Assembly: GCA_003280495.1 (NCBI GenBank)
Contig: QCET01000001.1
Coordinates: 1 to 64,000, forward strand
DNA length: 64,000 nt
DNA from: Pelagibacteraceae bacterium AG-359-E06
Lineage (GTDB): Bacteria > Pseudomonadota > Alphaproteobacteria > Pelagibacterales > Pelagibacteraceae
Direction: 5' to 3'
Of this stretch, positions 15,522 through 23,313 are shown in pieces. Numbering within the stretch: the first letter of the stretch is position 1; every line of letters begins with the position of its first letter. A model generated the notes under the pieces. That model was not told the DNA's origin and made no database searches. It saw only the letters and a program-made list of their open reading frames with translations. The position numbers were made by a program, and so were the translations under genes.

Positions 15522-16535
15522 GTGTCCAAAAAGAAAAATAAACTAATTTTTTTAGGCGTTGGAAGCTTATCTGTAGTTGCTCTATTAATAATTTTCCTAA
15601 CTACAAATCAATCTCATTTCAAAGAAGGCGATAATGTTAATATTAATAAATTTCTTAAAATAGATAGTACAAAATATAAATTCAGTGATTACAGTAAAAT
15701 TATCGGGCAAAATGTAGTGCCTTGGGATAATAGAAAAGCTAGTCTACCTAAAGATATGACAGATGTTAAATCAATTAATGTCTTTTATAAAAAAAAACCT
15801 GCTAAAATTTTAGTATACAAAGTTAAAAATACAGATGATATTGTAATTCGTCTCACAGTCGGTGTTATTGGTAAAAAAAATCTAAATCTAAGATGTGATG
15901 AGTTTCTAGCAACTATGCCTTCAAATTTTTTTAAATCTGAAAATATAAAAAGAGACGCTCCTGATTTTAGTGTAATGAAAATGATTTTCTATACCTTCTC
16001 AAAAGATTTTAAAAATAGAAGAGTTACTGGCAGGTGTATATCTAGTAAAGGAAGAATGGATATTTCTGAGCAACCTGGCTATTCATTTATTAATATATCC
16101 AAAAAAAATGTTTCGTGGGCAAAGAGTGTTACTCCAAAAAAACTTATCACATGCAGATACACTAGGATGGAGGATAAGGGAAGATTTAAAAAAGAGTACA
16201 GCTTTTTAAAAAAAAGTAAAGGAGCTAAGTTTTTTGATGATGTAAAAGAGATTAAATTTTATATAGATGAGACATTAAAAAAACTTACATTTTATGAAAA
16301 TGATCTTTACGCCGGTAAAACCATTAGGTTCGATCAAAACTTTATAGAAGTTGAAAGAGTAAACAAAAAACAAAGATCAACAAGACTCTATAAGATTGAC
16401 AGAATTACGGGTGAAATAATTATGATTTACTCAGGTTCAAATAATGATGCAGGTAAATGGTATATAAATAATAATTTTAGATGGGTTTATAGTGGAAATT
16501 GCAATTCACTAAGCACAACTAAAAGAAAATTTTAA
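15522..16535 (+). CDS. Unknown membrane-anchored protein
   Basis: I do not recognise this 337-residue protein. It starts with GTG, has a basic N-terminus and one hydrophobic segment (about residues 8-27), and is then soluble and lysine-rich, so it is probably anchored in the inner membrane with a periplasmic body. Four cysteines (one about residue 127, three later) could form disulfides. No catalytic motif is visible. It lies 22 bp after the PfkB kinase and 85 bp before the sugar-phosphate cyclase on the same strand. The C-terminal third (DAGKWYINNNFRW) looks beta-rich. No function is proposed. Confidence 0.8.
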   Translation: MSKKKNKLIFLGVGSLSVVALLIIFLTTNQSHFKEGDNVNINKFLKIDSTKYKFSDYSKIIGQNVVPWDNRKASLPKDMTDVKSINVFYKKKPAKILVYKVKNTDDIVIRLTVGVIGKKNLNLRCDEFLATMPSNFFKSENIKRDAPDFSVMKMIFYTFSKDFKNRRVTGRCISSKGRMDISEQPGYSFINISKKNVSWAKSVTPKKLITCRYTRMEDKGRFKKEYSFLKKSKGAKFFDDVKEIKFYIDETLKKLTFYENDLYAGKTIRFDQNFIEVERVNKKQRSTRLYKIDRITGEIIMIYSGSNNDAGKWYINNNFRWVYSGNCNSLSTTKRKF

Positions 16536-16620: not shown

Positions 16621-18372
16621 GTGATTAAAATAGTTAATGAAATTAAGCAATTCGTAAAAGAATTTGACTATTCTTTATTGGATCCAAACCTAGAAGATAA
16701 GGGTCTTTACAAAGTAATTGAAAACTCGAATTTTTTAGATTTCCTGAAAACTATAACCGAGATTGATGTTTACTCACAAGATATTGCTGAAGAATTTAAA
16801 AATGAAGACGCTGTCACTGGATTATCAAGTATTAAAATTTTAAAATCAGCTCTAAATCACAAATCGTATTTTTTTCTACAAAATCTTTCAGATTTAATCT
16901 TTTCTTTTGATGAAGATAAAGGTGCTATTTGGAGTGATTTTGCTGAAAATGTTAAAGAGATTGATCTTGCTGATACAAAAGTTTTAGATTTAGGATTAAA
17001 ATCAAAAGCTAAATCAGATTATGCTGACCTAAGAGATATTTATGAAAAGAAAAACCCACATGCTCTTTATCCAACATCAAGTTACCGTGAAAGCTACGGA
17101 TACACTCTAAGTACAAAAAATTACCAGCACATTGAAGCTGTGATGGGTCTTAAAACATTTACAACTTTAAAAGTTCAACATAATACATTAGATCCAGATG
17201 TTCCTTTGCTGAGAGATATTTACAAGTCTTTAAAAAGGTGTGTATGTTTGGTTGATCAAAATGTTGAAGATAATTTTGGTGATAAAATTACAGACTATTT
17301 TGCTCACCATGGCATCAAATTGGAAAAACTTGTTTATAGAGCTATGGAGATTGATAAATCTTATGAAAATGTTGGAAAAATTTTAGGAGATTTCAAACAG
17401 CTTGGAGTTTCTAGAAATGAACCTGTTTTAATTATGGGTGGAGGTGTTTTAGCAGATATTGGGGGCTTTGCATGTGCATTGTACCACAGAAATACTCCTT
17501 ACGTTATGCTTGCAACATCAATTGTATCTGGAATCGATGCAGGTCCTTCTCCAAGAACATGTTGCGATGGGCATGGATATAAGAATCTTTTTGGTGCTTA
17601 TCATACTCCTATTCTATGTATCACCGATAAATCTTTTTTTAAAACTTTAGAACCAGGATGGTTAAGACACGGTGTGGCTGAAATTATTAAAATGGCTGTT
17701 GTAAAAGATATTGAATTATTTGAAGCTCTCGAAGAAATCGGAACGGACCTTTTAACATCAAAATTTGGTACCTCAAATTGTATTAAGGGAGATGAAATAG
17801 ATAAAGGGTCTGATAAAATTTTAGGCCTCGCATTGAAAAGCTATGTAGCATCAGAATATGATAATTTATATGAAACACATCAATGCAGACCGCATGCTTA
17901 TGGTCATACTTGGTCACCCGGATTTGAAATTAAAGCAGGACTATTACACGGTCATGCTGTATCTGTTGGAATGGGATTAGGAGCATATTTTAGTTACATA
18001 AATAAATGGATATCGTCTGACCAAATGCATAGAATTTTTAAATTAATTAGTAAATTTGAATTAAGTTTGTGGCACGACATATTACTTGATGATGAATGTG
18101 TATGGGGTTCTCAAGTTAAGATGGTTCAAAAAAGAGGTGGTAACTTGTCTGCTCCACTGCCCAAAGGTGAAATTGGAAAATGCGGATATTTAAATGAAAT
18201 GTCAAAACAAAATTTATTCAAATATATAAGAGAATATCAAGCCATCGTTGCCAAATATCCCAGACAAGGAAAAGGGATTGAGCCTTTATGCTCCGATGTT
18301 GGACTAGAGGATCCAGGAACAGTTTATAGAAATAACGAAGAGAAAGTTATAGAAAAAACCAATCTTAACTAA
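16621..18372 (+). CDS. Divergent sugar-phosphate cyclase (DHQ synthase/C7-cyclitol synthase superfamily) with N-terminal extension
   Basis: NAD-dependent, metal-dependent cyclase fold of the 3-dehydroquinate synthase superfamily, which also includes sedoheptulose-7-phosphate cyclases making C7 cyclitols. Visible are the NAD loop MGGGVLADIGG (272-282), D306, K321-N322, GVAEIIK (E354, K357) and metal-site histidines H429 and H443. By ungapped alignment to DHQ synthase the active-site Lys152 equivalent is Arg312, in an unusual GPSPRT motif (308-313). The Asn268 and His275 equivalents are Ala426 and Pro433. These changes argue against an ordinary AroB. Residues 1 to about 165 are an extension I cannot assign, making it 583 residues against the usual 350-420. 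The GTG start at 16621 is the first in frame. The stop overlaps the next gene's ATG by one base. Confidence 0.8.
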   Translation: MIKIVNEIKQFVKEFDYSLLDPNLEDKGLYKVIENSNFLDFLKTITEIDVYSQDIAEEFKNEDAVTGLSSIKILKSALNHKSYFFLQNLSDLIFSFDEDKGAIWSDFAENVKEIDLADTKVLDLGLKSKAKSDYADLRDIYEKKNPHALYPTSSYRESYGYTLSTKNYQHIEAVMGLKTFTTLKVQHNTLDPDVPLLRDIYKSLKRCVCLVDQNVEDNFGDKITDYFAHHGIKLEKLVYRAMEIDKSYENVGKILGDFKQLGVSRNEPVLIMGGGVLADIGGFACALYHRNTPYVMLATSIVSGIDAGPSPRTCCDGHGYKNLFGAYHTPILCITDKSFFKTLEPGWLRHGVAEIIKMAVVKDIELFEALEEIGTDLLTSKFGTSNCIKGDEIDKGSDKILGLALKSYVASEYDNLYETHQCRPHAYGHTWSPGFEIKAGLLHGHAVSVGMGLGAYFSYINKWISSDQMHRIFKLISKFELSLWHDILLDDECVWGSQVKMVQKRGGNLSAPLPKGEIGKCGYLNEMSKQNLFKYIREYQAIVAKYPRQGKGIEPLCSDVGLEDPGTVYRNNEEKVIEKTNLN

Positions 18373-19331
18373 TGTTAGAAATTGTCATCCCGTTATTCAA
18401 AGTTAATTGGATAACTAAAGCAGTTTTAGAAAGTTTAAATCTTCATTATAGCCCGAGAAAAATTCATATCATTTCTGTCAAAAAAGAGATTGAAACTATC
18501 GAAATGTTAGACTTGGATTTGCCTATTGAATGTCACAATGAAGATAATTTTTTTTTAAAAAAATATAATGTTACTAAAGAGAATCTATTACAAAATCTAA
18601 CTATAAAAAATGATTTGTATTCAAAAGGCTGGTTCTACCAGCAGTGCTTAAAGATTGGGGCCAACGATATTATTAAACTTCCTGATAAATTTATGGTGTG
18701 GGATGCAGATATGTTGCCAGTAAACCCTTGGCCAGTTTCTGATAACAAGTTTGCATTATTGCAAGACAATTCGGGTGGTAATCCAGAAATAGTTAAAAAA
18801 TGGGAAATATGGATAAAAGAAGTTTTAAACGTGGATCCAGTAATAAATTCTAAATCTACTTTTACCTGTCATCATATGATCTTAAATCAAGTTCATTTAG
18901 AGAGTTTTAAAAAACAAATACAAAAGCATTATAAATCAGATGAAAGCTGGCTTAAATTATTAATTAAATCATTTAATGATTATGAAACTTTTAGTGAATA
19001 TTGGGCTTATACATCTTGGGTAAATAAGAAAGCTAAAGATGATTTAAAATATTTTGAGTATGAAGATTACGGAGAAACTCATGAAAGATTCTTTGATGAT
19101 GGGACGGGATTATTTTCGTCTAAACTTAAAAAGCATTTAAAAATTAAAAACGATGAAGTTTTTTATCCATCTTATTCACAAGTCAAAGATTTTATTAAAA
19201 CAACTTATAAAGATAAATTACCTTCAACATTGTCATTTGAGATGAGTAAAAGACATTTAAACAAGAAAGTTGAAACCGTACATATAGAAGAAAAAAGATC
19301 TGTGTGGAATCCAAGATTTAATAAAATTTAA
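18372..19331 (+). CDS. Glycosyltransferase-like protein (DUF6492 type)
   Basis: A 319-residue cytoplasmic protein beginning LEIVIPLFKVNW, like the first strand of a GT-A fold. It carries GWFYQQCLKI (about residues 79-88), a DxD-like VWDADMLPV (about 103-111) expected to bind metal and nucleotide-sugar, and TCHHMI (about 157). This order resembles the uncharacterised DUF6492 glycosyltransferase-like family. Its ATG shares one base with the cyclase stop (TAATG), so the two are translated together. A sugar transfer onto the cyclase product is the simplest inference, but donor and acceptor are unknown. It is convergent with thiV, overlapping by 4 bp. Confidence 0.7.
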   Translation: MLEIVIPLFKVNWITKAVLESLNLHYSPRKIHIISVKKEIETIEMLDLDLPIECHNEDNFFLKKYNVTKENLLQNLTIKNDLYSKGWFYQQCLKIGANDIIKLPDKFMVWDADMLPVNPWPVSDNKFALLQDNSGGNPEIVKKWEIWIKEVLNVDPVINSKSTFTCHHMILNQVHLESFKKQIQKHYKSDESWLKLLIKSFNDYETFSEYWAYTSWVNKKAKDDLKYFEYEDYGETHERFFDDGTGLFSSKLKKHLKIKNDEVFYPSYSQVKDFIKTTYKDKLPSTLSFEMSKRHLNKKVETVHIEEKRSVWNPRFNKI

Positions 19332-21482: not shown

Positions 21483-21833
21483 TTATTTTAATTGCTTTTT
21501 GTTTTTTAAATATAGAAAGAATGCAATTATCTCATACAAATAATGGAACATTACAAATAAAGGTTTAAATTTAAATATTTTTGATAGAAAATGATATTTA
21601 GGAATTTTTGACCAAACAATAATAAATGCTTTAGCTCCACCTACTACCTCCCCCTCATGAATTACATGAAGCCTTCTCAATAGTTCACTTTTTGATTTTG
21701 ACGTTATAGCCTCTGCATCTTGATTATTTGATATATCGACCCAGTCAATTGTTTCGTCAGCATGTTTTTTATAATGATTGATCTCAGCCCTACAAATATT
21801 GCATGAATTATTAAAAAAAACTTTAGTTTGCAT
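21483..21833 (-). CDS. DCC-family thiol-disulfide oxidoreductase-like protein (DUF393)
   Basis: A 116-residue thioredoxin-like protein. The N-terminal FFNNSCNIC motif puts a CxxC at residues 11-14, in the place of the DxxCxxC that names the DCC family. HVIHEGEVVGGAKAF (about 56-70) is the second family signature. The C-terminus is hydrophobic (FVMFHYLYEIIAFFLYL). DCC proteins are often neighbours of cryptochrome/photolyase genes, and here the start overlaps the photolyase stop by 11 bp. Biochemical role is unknown. Confidence 0.85.
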   Translation of the reverse strand: MQTKVFFNNSCNICRAEINHYKKHADETIDWVDISNNQDAEAITSKSKSELLRRLHVIHEGEVVGGAKAFIIVWSKIPKYHFLSKIFKFKPLFVMFHYLYEIIAFFLYLKNKKQLK

Positions 21834-23313
21834 CTGTATTTTCTGTAATAAATTTATTTGCGGCCGTAAATATCAATTTTTTTCTTTCCGGTTTCATCTT
21901 TTCCAAAATTCTAGCCATCATAGATAATCTTGGATTTTTTAAGAAAAATTTTTTATTTTTTTCAATGAATCTCCAATATAAACCGTCCATTATGTTGCAC
22001 CAGTCGCCTTTTTTAAAATGCATCATTTTTAAAAAATATGCAGATCCACATATATATGGTTTAGTAGCAAAAGTGCCTCCATCACTAAAGAGCCCCATAC
22101 CATAAACGTTTGGAGACATAACCCAATCTGATGAGTCCATAAACATTTCCATGAACCAGTTAAAAACTTTTTTTGGGTGTATTTCGCATAAGTTCATAAT
22201 ATTTGATAAAATCATCAAACGTTCAATATGGTGCGACCATGCATATTTATTTGCATTATTAATTGCATAATCAAGAGGCGGCAGACCTGTTTCTCCAGTA
22301 TACCAACTTTTTTTCATTTTTCTTTTATGATTAAAAAAATTGGTTTTCTGAAAATGATCATCATAATTCTGATATATCCCTCTCATAAATTCTCTCCAAC
22401 CGATTAATTGACGGATATAACCTTCTAAAGAATTTAGCCTTTTAGTTTTTCCAGATTTTGAAATTTCATCTAAAATTTCTTGAGGTGTCAAAAGACCGAT
22501 ATTTATAAATGGACTTAATGCACTGTGAAAAAGGATATTATCTCTCTCATCGACTGAGTCCTCGTAATCACCAAATAAATTAAGTTTAAAGTTTATAAAA
22601 TTTCTTAATGTTGATCTAGCGTCTTTTCTCTCTGTTCCTATCCAAAAATCTTTAACGTCTCCAGGATGTGTTTTAAATTCTTTATCTATAATTTTTTTAA
22701 TTTTTTCTGTATGTGGTGATTGTGAGTATTTAATCTGCTTAGGTAACTTAATATTTTTTGGTAATTTTTTTCTATTGTCTTCATCGAAACTCCATTTACC
22801 TCCTTTTGGATTTCCATTTTTATCGACCAATATTCCTAGCTTTACTCTCTGCTCTTTGTAAAAGGTGGCCATAAATGGTTTTTTTACTTTTTTTAGATGT
22901 TTTGAAAAGTCTTCTCTAGATGTTAAAAACATTGGTGTTTTTAAAATATTTACCGTTACATTCGCTTTTTTTAAAGTAGATAAAATTTTTTTTTCAAAGT
23001 CTTTATCCTCAATTTCAAATATAGAAACTTGGTCAATTTTTTTTTTATTAATTTCTTTTATTAATTTTTTTTCATATGGAATTTTAAAATTTTTATCTTC
23101 AATTTTTTCATAAATCACTTTCAGTTTATTTTTTTTTAATTCATCTAAATAAGATCTCATAGCAGACAGAAAAAAAACTATCTTCTGCTTATGATGTTTT
23201 TGAAATGTACATAATCCATAATCCTCTGCGATAAAGAAAGTATGATCTTGGTATTTTTTTAAAAATTTTGGGTCAAATAATTGATTACCAAGAATTACAA
23301 AAAGTTTATTCAT
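21823..23313 (-). CDS. Cryptochrome/photolyase family protein, FeS-BCP (PhrB-type) relative
   Basis: A 496-residue flavoprotein of the bacterial (6-4) photolyase/FeS-BCP group (COG3046): LFVILGNQLF at the N-terminus, FSDGGTFATKPYICGSAYF and DGLYWRFI in the FAD domain. Predicted role is light-driven DNA repair or light sensing. Of the four cysteines that bind 4Fe-4S in Agrobacterium PhrB, only equivalents of two appear (C375 and C439). The loop carrying the CxxC is shortened to about 13 residues. A functional cluster is therefore unlikely. It overlaps the regulator upstream (8 bp) and the DCC gene downstream (11 bp). Confidence 0.88.
   Translation of the reverse strand: MNKLFVILGNQLFDPKFLKKYQDHTFFIAEDYGLCTFQKHHKQKIVFFLSAMRSYLDELKKNKLKVIYEKIEDKNFKIPYEKKLIKEINKKKIDQVSIFEIEDKDFEKKILSTLKKANVTVNILKTPMFLTSREDFSKHLKKVKKPFMATFYKEQRVKLGILVDKNGNPKGGKWSFDEDNRKKLPKNIKLPKQIKYSQSPHTEKIKKIIDKEFKTHPGDVKDFWIGTERKDARSTLRNFINFKLNLFGDYEDSVDERDNILFHSALSPFINIGLLTPQEILDEISKSGKTKRLNSLEGYIRQLIGWREFMRGIYQNYDDHFQKTNFFNHKRKMKKSWYTGETGLPPLDYAINNANKYAWSHHIERLMILSNIMNLCEIHPKKVFNWFMEMFMDSSDWVMSPNVYGMGLFSDGGTFATKPYICGSAYFLKMMHFKKGDWCNIMDGLYWRFIEKNKKFFLKNPRLSMMARILEKMKPERKKLIFTAANKFITENTDAN

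Follow-up and report, generated by a model that had tools for sequence, protein, structure and literature searches.

A variant MysA-type cyclase gene overlapping a putative glycosyltransferase gene in SAR11: a candidate cassette for a glycosylated cyclitol

We report a pair of overlapping genes from the SAR11 member Pelagibacteraceae bacterium AG-359-E06, a small candidate pathway whose product would be a glycosylated cyclitol not described before. The pair lies in a window of 64,000 nucleotides, which is the whole stretch of DNA that was analysed (contig QCET01000001.1, positions 1 to 64,000). As judged from its sequence, the first gene product is a sugar-phosphate cyclase that branches off the mycosporine (DDGS) family, and the second is a putative GT-A glycosyltransferase. 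The reading that we favour is that of a self-contained two-enzyme cassette leading from sedoheptulose-7-phosphate to a glycosylated deoxygadusol-type cyclitol, and we believe and doubt it in about equal measure.

In the proposed pathway, the cyclase would use NAD and a metal ion to turn sedoheptulose-7-phosphate into a demethyl-4-deoxygadusol-type ring, and the partner would then move a sugar from a nucleotide sugar onto a ring hydroxyl. Glycosylation would stand in for the MysB methylation and the MysC amino-acid ligation of the mycosporine pathway, and the pathway would yield a glycosylated cyclitol, small and soluble in water, that could serve as a UV-B screen, an antioxidant or a compatible solute. 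We infer the substrate, the ring product and the glycosyl transfer to the ring from family membership and synteny. A glycosylated cyclitol is a reasonable product of the cassette; its physiological role, the replacement of a methyl group by a sugar and the sufficiency of two genes are speculative. Osmolyte and antioxidant functions of MAAs have been reported from a desert cyanobacterium (PMC13131328), so that a solute role for the product would be equally possible.

The cyclase gene (16621..18372, + strand) has a GTG start and encodes 583 amino acids, and the partner gene (18372..19331, + strand) encodes 319. They are joined by the stop/start overlap TAATG (18370..18374, + strand), and both reading frames stand in the sequence as originally described. 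Cyclase and partner genes also overlap in AG-470-E16, by 4 bases, and a locus of Pelagibacteraceae AG-894-A09 has the same gene order, at 91-99% identity. Both genes recur in different phyla, and in SAR11 purifying selection acts on them (dN/dS about 0.01-0.13); on this comparative evidence, the cassette is more than a pair of chance ORFs. Synonymous divergence between the window and genome G326 (L115:8636-10387) is ~1.4 in the cyclase against 0.27 in the adjacent partner, which suggests recombination with a breakpoint inside the cassette. Just upstream, at 15522-16535, lies the gene for a 337-aa protein without a Pfam match, which was found in the same genus only, at 74-98% identity. A photolyase-related (DPRP) gene is located near the pair (21823-23313, - strand), and another (L033:7962-9482, + strand) is located directly upstream of the mys cluster of Rhodospirillaceae SP154. 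A UV regulon was considered on account of these two genes and given no weight, such a gene being absent near the pair in AG-470-E16 and in cyanobacteria.

Pfam recognised DHQ_synthase (residues 240-345) and DHQS_C (residues 351-486) in the cyclase. Its nearest solved relatives by sequence were the DDGS of A. variabilis (5tpr, 3e-64) and the EEVS ValA (4p53, 2e-47), and the predicted structure had its best PDB matches among DDGS, EEVS and DHQ synthases, DDGS being the closest. In a tree of 48 rows built on the catalytic part, a clade of long cyclases (~585 aa; support 100/99) and a clade of ~450-aa MysA variants (100/99) formed a union (100/100), which joined canonical DDGS (100/99) and not ValA EEVS or EboD. 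A constraint that united the 450-aa clade and canonical DDGS and left the long form outside was rejected (p 9e-6). By this phylogeny, the window cyclase is a member of the long clade, which is sister to the 450-aa variant, and the two together are sister to canonical DDGS. A C7-cyclitol-type cyclase had been predicted, and both the junction with DDGS and the Ala426/Pro433 state described below agree with this.

The genomic settings of these lineages were surveyed with a 15-row cyclase profile in 292 cyanobacterial genomes (the phylum to which Xenococcus PCC 7305 belongs). Matches fell into three tiers: above 1000 bits came the long form (6 genomes), at 444-488 bits the 450-aa form (8 genomes) and at 285-323 bits canonical DDGS. 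A single EEVS-like outlier scored 203 bits. Each of the eight 450-aa genes has homologues of mysB, mysC and mysD in its cluster (L156-L163), and the canonical DDGS genes examined lie beside mysC, mostly with mysB as well. Cyanobacteria hence hold two MysA lineages, the 450-aa GPSPRT form and the canonical form, besides the long form. At L171:7545-10892 (G556), the neighbours of a gene for a cyclase with EEVS-like Asp and His encode a methyltransferase and MysC; this may be a mycosporine cluster that starts with an EEVS.

The original prediction pointed the right way but put the cyclase at too great a distance from the mycosporine pathway: the long form itself occurs inside the mysB-C-D clusters of two proteobacteria. 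In Rhodospirillaceae SP154 (L033/L056), a photolyase-like gene is followed by the genes for the long cyclase, an O-methyltransferase, an ATP-grasp MysC-like protein, a D-Ala-D-Ala-ligase-like MysD and HAD; in a Polaromonas MAG (L055), mysB, mysC and mysD come before the long cyclase and HAD. Furthermore, Hyella LEGE 07179, Myxosarcina, Hyellaceae CSU_1_1 and Pleurocapsa CCALA 161 carry mysB and mysC together without mysA, and besides the long cyclase these four cyanobacteria have only an AroB-level cyclase match, leaving the long cyclase as the only candidate MysA there. From its presence in mysB-C-D clusters and its position as sole non-AroB cyclase in mysA-less genomes, we infer that the long cyclase can serve as MysA, and probably does so in Pleurocapsales. 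A published survey found that most mys clusters of Pleurocapsales have no mysA, and did not settle what the homologues of mysA do (PMC8472315); the long cyclase, encoded away from mysB and mysC in Pleurocapsales genomes, is a concrete candidate for the missing gene.

Homologues of the long cyclase were found in SAR11, cyanobacteria and two other proteobacteria (MAGs). Within a sample of 247 genomes of the SAR11 family, the long cyclase was present in 9 and the partner in the same 9, the genes being always adjacent, in several genomic places and with differing neighbourhoods. The partner was also found in 4 of the 292 cyanobacterial genomes, each time adjoining the long cyclase. The pair is thus conserved in other marine genomes and in cyanobacteria, and its absence from relatives, named beforehand as a point against it, was not what we found. 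Because the linkage to the cyclase persists across phyla, a partner that is a mere bystander was ruled out.

The distribution of the partner was then compared with that of MysB and MysC. MysC was found nowhere in the source genome (842 kb, an assembly 79.6% complete), in which the only O-methyltransferase match was generic and low-scoring; a lack of mycosporine partners near the pair had been noted at first reading. Thirty of the 34 cyanobacterial genomes with a cyclase over threshold have MysC, and the four without it are the four with the partner. A genome scan of 19 loci recorded the partner in 14, and 12 of those genomes were without MysC; the five loci with no recorded partner all belong to genomes with MysC, one locus ending at a contig edge. 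MysC was found neither in two further SAR11 genomes nor in 10 of the 12 partner-bearing cyanobacteria of the scan set. MysB-level matches (>350 bits) occurred only in MysC-bearing genomes, the other genomes giving generic methyltransferases below 160 bits. The chance figure for this exclusion is 2e-5 without correction for phylogeny, and with correction the exclusion is not significant (three contrasts, none against, p 0.25); the genomes that lack MysC are for the most part MAGs or single-cell assemblies, and possibly incomplete. Nor is the exclusion strict, as Hyella carries the partner together with MysBC, and Cyanothece SIO2G6 has the pair, a second cyclase of the 450-aa form and a partial MysC. 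A third gene beside the pair in Cyanothece SIO2G6 (L050) was considered as MysD and rejected, being an ordinary D-Ala-D-Ala ligase by Pfam. In the MysBC-bearing Myxosarcina, a broken partner remnant (L121:9768-10020) lies directly behind the intact cyclase.

These distributions bear on an ordinary mycosporine pathway, in which the window cyclase would be MysA, the other genes would lie elsewhere or be lost from the assembly, and the partner would be a late decorator or a bystander. Such a pathway would agree with the two proteobacterial clusters, with the probable MysA role in Pleurocapsales and with the gene content of Hyella, and glycosylated mycosporines are known, the GT4-type MysG being active (PMC11378024). 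It is nonetheless unlikely in view of the absence of MysC from the source genome, the two other SAR11 genomes, 10 of the 12 scan-set cyanobacteria and all four partner-bearing genomes of the 292-genome sample, the accompanying lack of a MysB-level methyltransferase, and the linkage of the partner to the cyclase across phyla.

An active-site table was drawn from the 48-row alignment. The window cyclase keeps D306, K321, N322, E354, K357, H429 and H443, in agreement with the conserved residues and metal-site histidines first read from it. In the GPSPRT motif (residues 308-313; 17542..17559, + strand), Arg312 replaces the Lys of the superfamily; the motif is invariant in 15 homologues of the cyclase. 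Every long and 450-aa row has Arg, AroB, EEVS, EboD and canonical DDGS having Lys throughout, and the Arg is therefore a trait of the variant MysA lineage and not of one gene. The segment HAYGHTWSP (residues 425-433; 17893..17919, + strand) contains the DDGS-like Ala426, the metal-ligand His429 and Pro433. Ala426 and Pro433 occupy the positions of the AroB Asn and His (268 and 275 in AnDHQS), residues that all AroB rows have. At position 426, the long form, canonical DDGS and the 450-aa form have Ala (the last with a single Gly and a single Ser as exceptions), and EEVS and EboD have Asp; at position 433, the C7-type rows have Pro apart from three deep SAR11 members with Ala. The DDGS structure 5tpr has Ala/Pro and the EEVS structure 4p53 has Asp/Pro; Ala therefore marks the DDGS-like state, and Pro occurs across the C7 enzymes in the table. 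The Arg, Ala and Pro of the original prediction were thus correctly identified; they are not peculiar to this protein, as the Arg is shared by the 450-aa clade and the Ala/Pro by DDGS.

Position 504, the second DDGS/EEVS fingerprint site, is occupied in the alignment by Lys in the variant lineage (long and 450-aa forms), by Thr in canonical DDGS and by His in EEVS. The window cyclase has neither the Asp nor the His of the EEVS fingerprint (Ala426, Lys504); it has the Ala of the DDGS fingerprint at 426, and Lys in place of its Thr at 504. Since residue 504 is neither Thr nor His, and residue 312 is Arg, the product may differ from demethyl-4-deoxygadusol. In the deep SAR11 cyclases of L116, L117 and L118 (G439, G523 and G417), the otherwise invariant HTWSP reads HGLSA, with Gly replacing Thr430 and Ala replacing Pro433; their product could have changed further. 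A ring other than the deoxygadusol type is the reading that Arg312 and Lys504, unlike EEVS and DDGS alike, and the variation of the deep SAR11 members at 430/433 would favour. It is improbable, however, as Ala426 is the DDGS state and not the EEVS Asp, the tree places the cyclase with DDGS and not with ValA, and the clade occurs in MAA clusters, which call for a deoxygadusol-type ring.

DUF6492 (Pfam) was matched by 12 of 13 partner homologues, at best with 8e-12; the window protein itself gave no match at E 1. A sequence search of the partner against the PDB gave no match, even with a profile, and the literature library searched gave no paper on DUF6492. Foldseek matches of the predicted structure (pLDDT 83.5) included the mouse xylosyltransferase XXYLT1, LgtC, glycogenin and the exopolysaccharide phosphotransferase CpsY, with E values from 8e-7 to 1e-5. 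TM-scores to GT8 enzymes were only 0.38-0.45, and those to Stealth phosphotransferases were nearly as high. D111 and D113 of the DxD motif (D111-A-D113; 18702..18710, + strand), a putative metal/nucleotide-sugar site, are invariant in the 13-row alignment of partner homologues. The DxD glycosyltransferase-like partner of the original prediction is accordingly retained as a putative GT-A glycosyltransferase, with a predicted fold that resembles GT8 and carries the DxD motif. The Stealth-type proteins CpsY and GNPTAB among the fold matches would also suit a partner that adds either a sugar phosphate or a sugar to a polymer of the cell surface, with the cyclitol as a building block of an envelope glycan. 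This is very unlikely, given that no other surface-glycan genes accompany the pair and that its neighbourhoods vary between SAR11 lineages and cyanobacteria.

The roughly 165 extra N-terminal residues of the cyclase, originally left without assignment, matched no Pfam family at a meaningful score (residues 1-165). Residues 1-149 (16621..17067, + strand) are predicted to form an all-helical domain of ~150 residues, with a block pLDDT mostly of 74-93 (fair to high). In the full-length model (pTM 0.43) the catalytic part is poorly predicted; the model matched DDGS, EEVS and DHQ synthases best in the PDB, and no fold match was obtained for the N-terminal domain. A profile of this domain, searched against the collected ORFs, matched long-clade cyclases only. 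As the domain also occurs in long-clade cyclases that have no partner gene, docking of the partner is not enough to explain it.

That the cyclase is a divergent AroB (3-dehydroquinate synthase) is almost certainly wrong, for although automatic models label it a DHQ synthase, it scores 138.9 bits with the TIGR aroB model (cut-off 305), matches AroB structures at 2e-24 and weaker, is distant from AroB in the tree (separated at 100/100), resists grouping with AroB (AU p 0.0008), has the AroB Asn and His substituted, and shares its genome with a separate canonical aroB on contig 7. The prediction had excluded AroB as well; a place inside AroB and the position of sole DHQ synthase of the genome, which were to count against it, were both checked by sequence, and neither was found. 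A phage or viral origin was also rejected, the viral contigs searched having no relative and the phage records having AroB-level matches only and no partner.

Few bacteria of the sunlit ocean are as abundant as SAR11, and the literature library searched gave no paper tying them to gadusol or mycosporine synthesis. If the pathway capped by glycosylation is true, SAR11 would make a sunscreen-type compound. The broader claim, that SAR11 and cyanobacteria share a two-enzyme pathway in which the ring is capped by glycosylation and not by methylation, yielding new UV-screening or antioxidant cyclitol glycosides without amino acids, is tentative and, in our estimation, somewhat unlikely.

Compared with known systems, the window cyclase is closest to DDGS/MysA (Ava_3858, PDB 5tpr), with which it shares the superfamily branch, Ala426, Pro433 and the NAD and metal residues, and its relatives fill the mysA slot of mys clusters. 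It differs in having Arg312 for Lys, Lys504 for Thr, the N-terminal helical domain of ~150 residues and a GT-A protein as its pair, in a genome where neither MysB nor MysC was found. The short variant MysA (~450 aa) of cyanobacterial mysA-B-C clusters with mysD, its sister clade, has the same GPSPRT Arg and Lys504; it is, however, without the N-terminal domain, has other loop residues and was never paired with a GT-A protein in the sample. EEVS (ValA, 4p53) is likewise of the sedoheptulose-7-phosphate cyclase family and has Pro433, but carries Asp at Ala426, His at Lys504 and Lys at Arg312, and falls outside the clade of DDGS and its variants. Among MAA glycosyltransferases, MysG belongs to GT4 and MysJ is beta-1,6-N-acetylglucosaminyltransferase-like (PMC11378024); the role proposed for the partner resembles theirs in placing a sugar onto a mycosporine-type compound, whereas the partner is DUF6492-like, has a predicted GT-A fold and adjoins the cyclase without MysB/C. 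The ebo cluster (PMC5133447) also holds a sugar-phosphate cyclase, EboD, in a small conserved cluster and with a product that is not known, but the EboD clade differs (Lys, Asp) and its partners are a UbiA-type prenyltransferase, a TIM barrel and a phosphodiesterase-like protein. Set against these systems, what is known is the DDGS/MysA family, and what is new, as far as gene content and phylogeny indicate, is a branch of MysA with a new partner.
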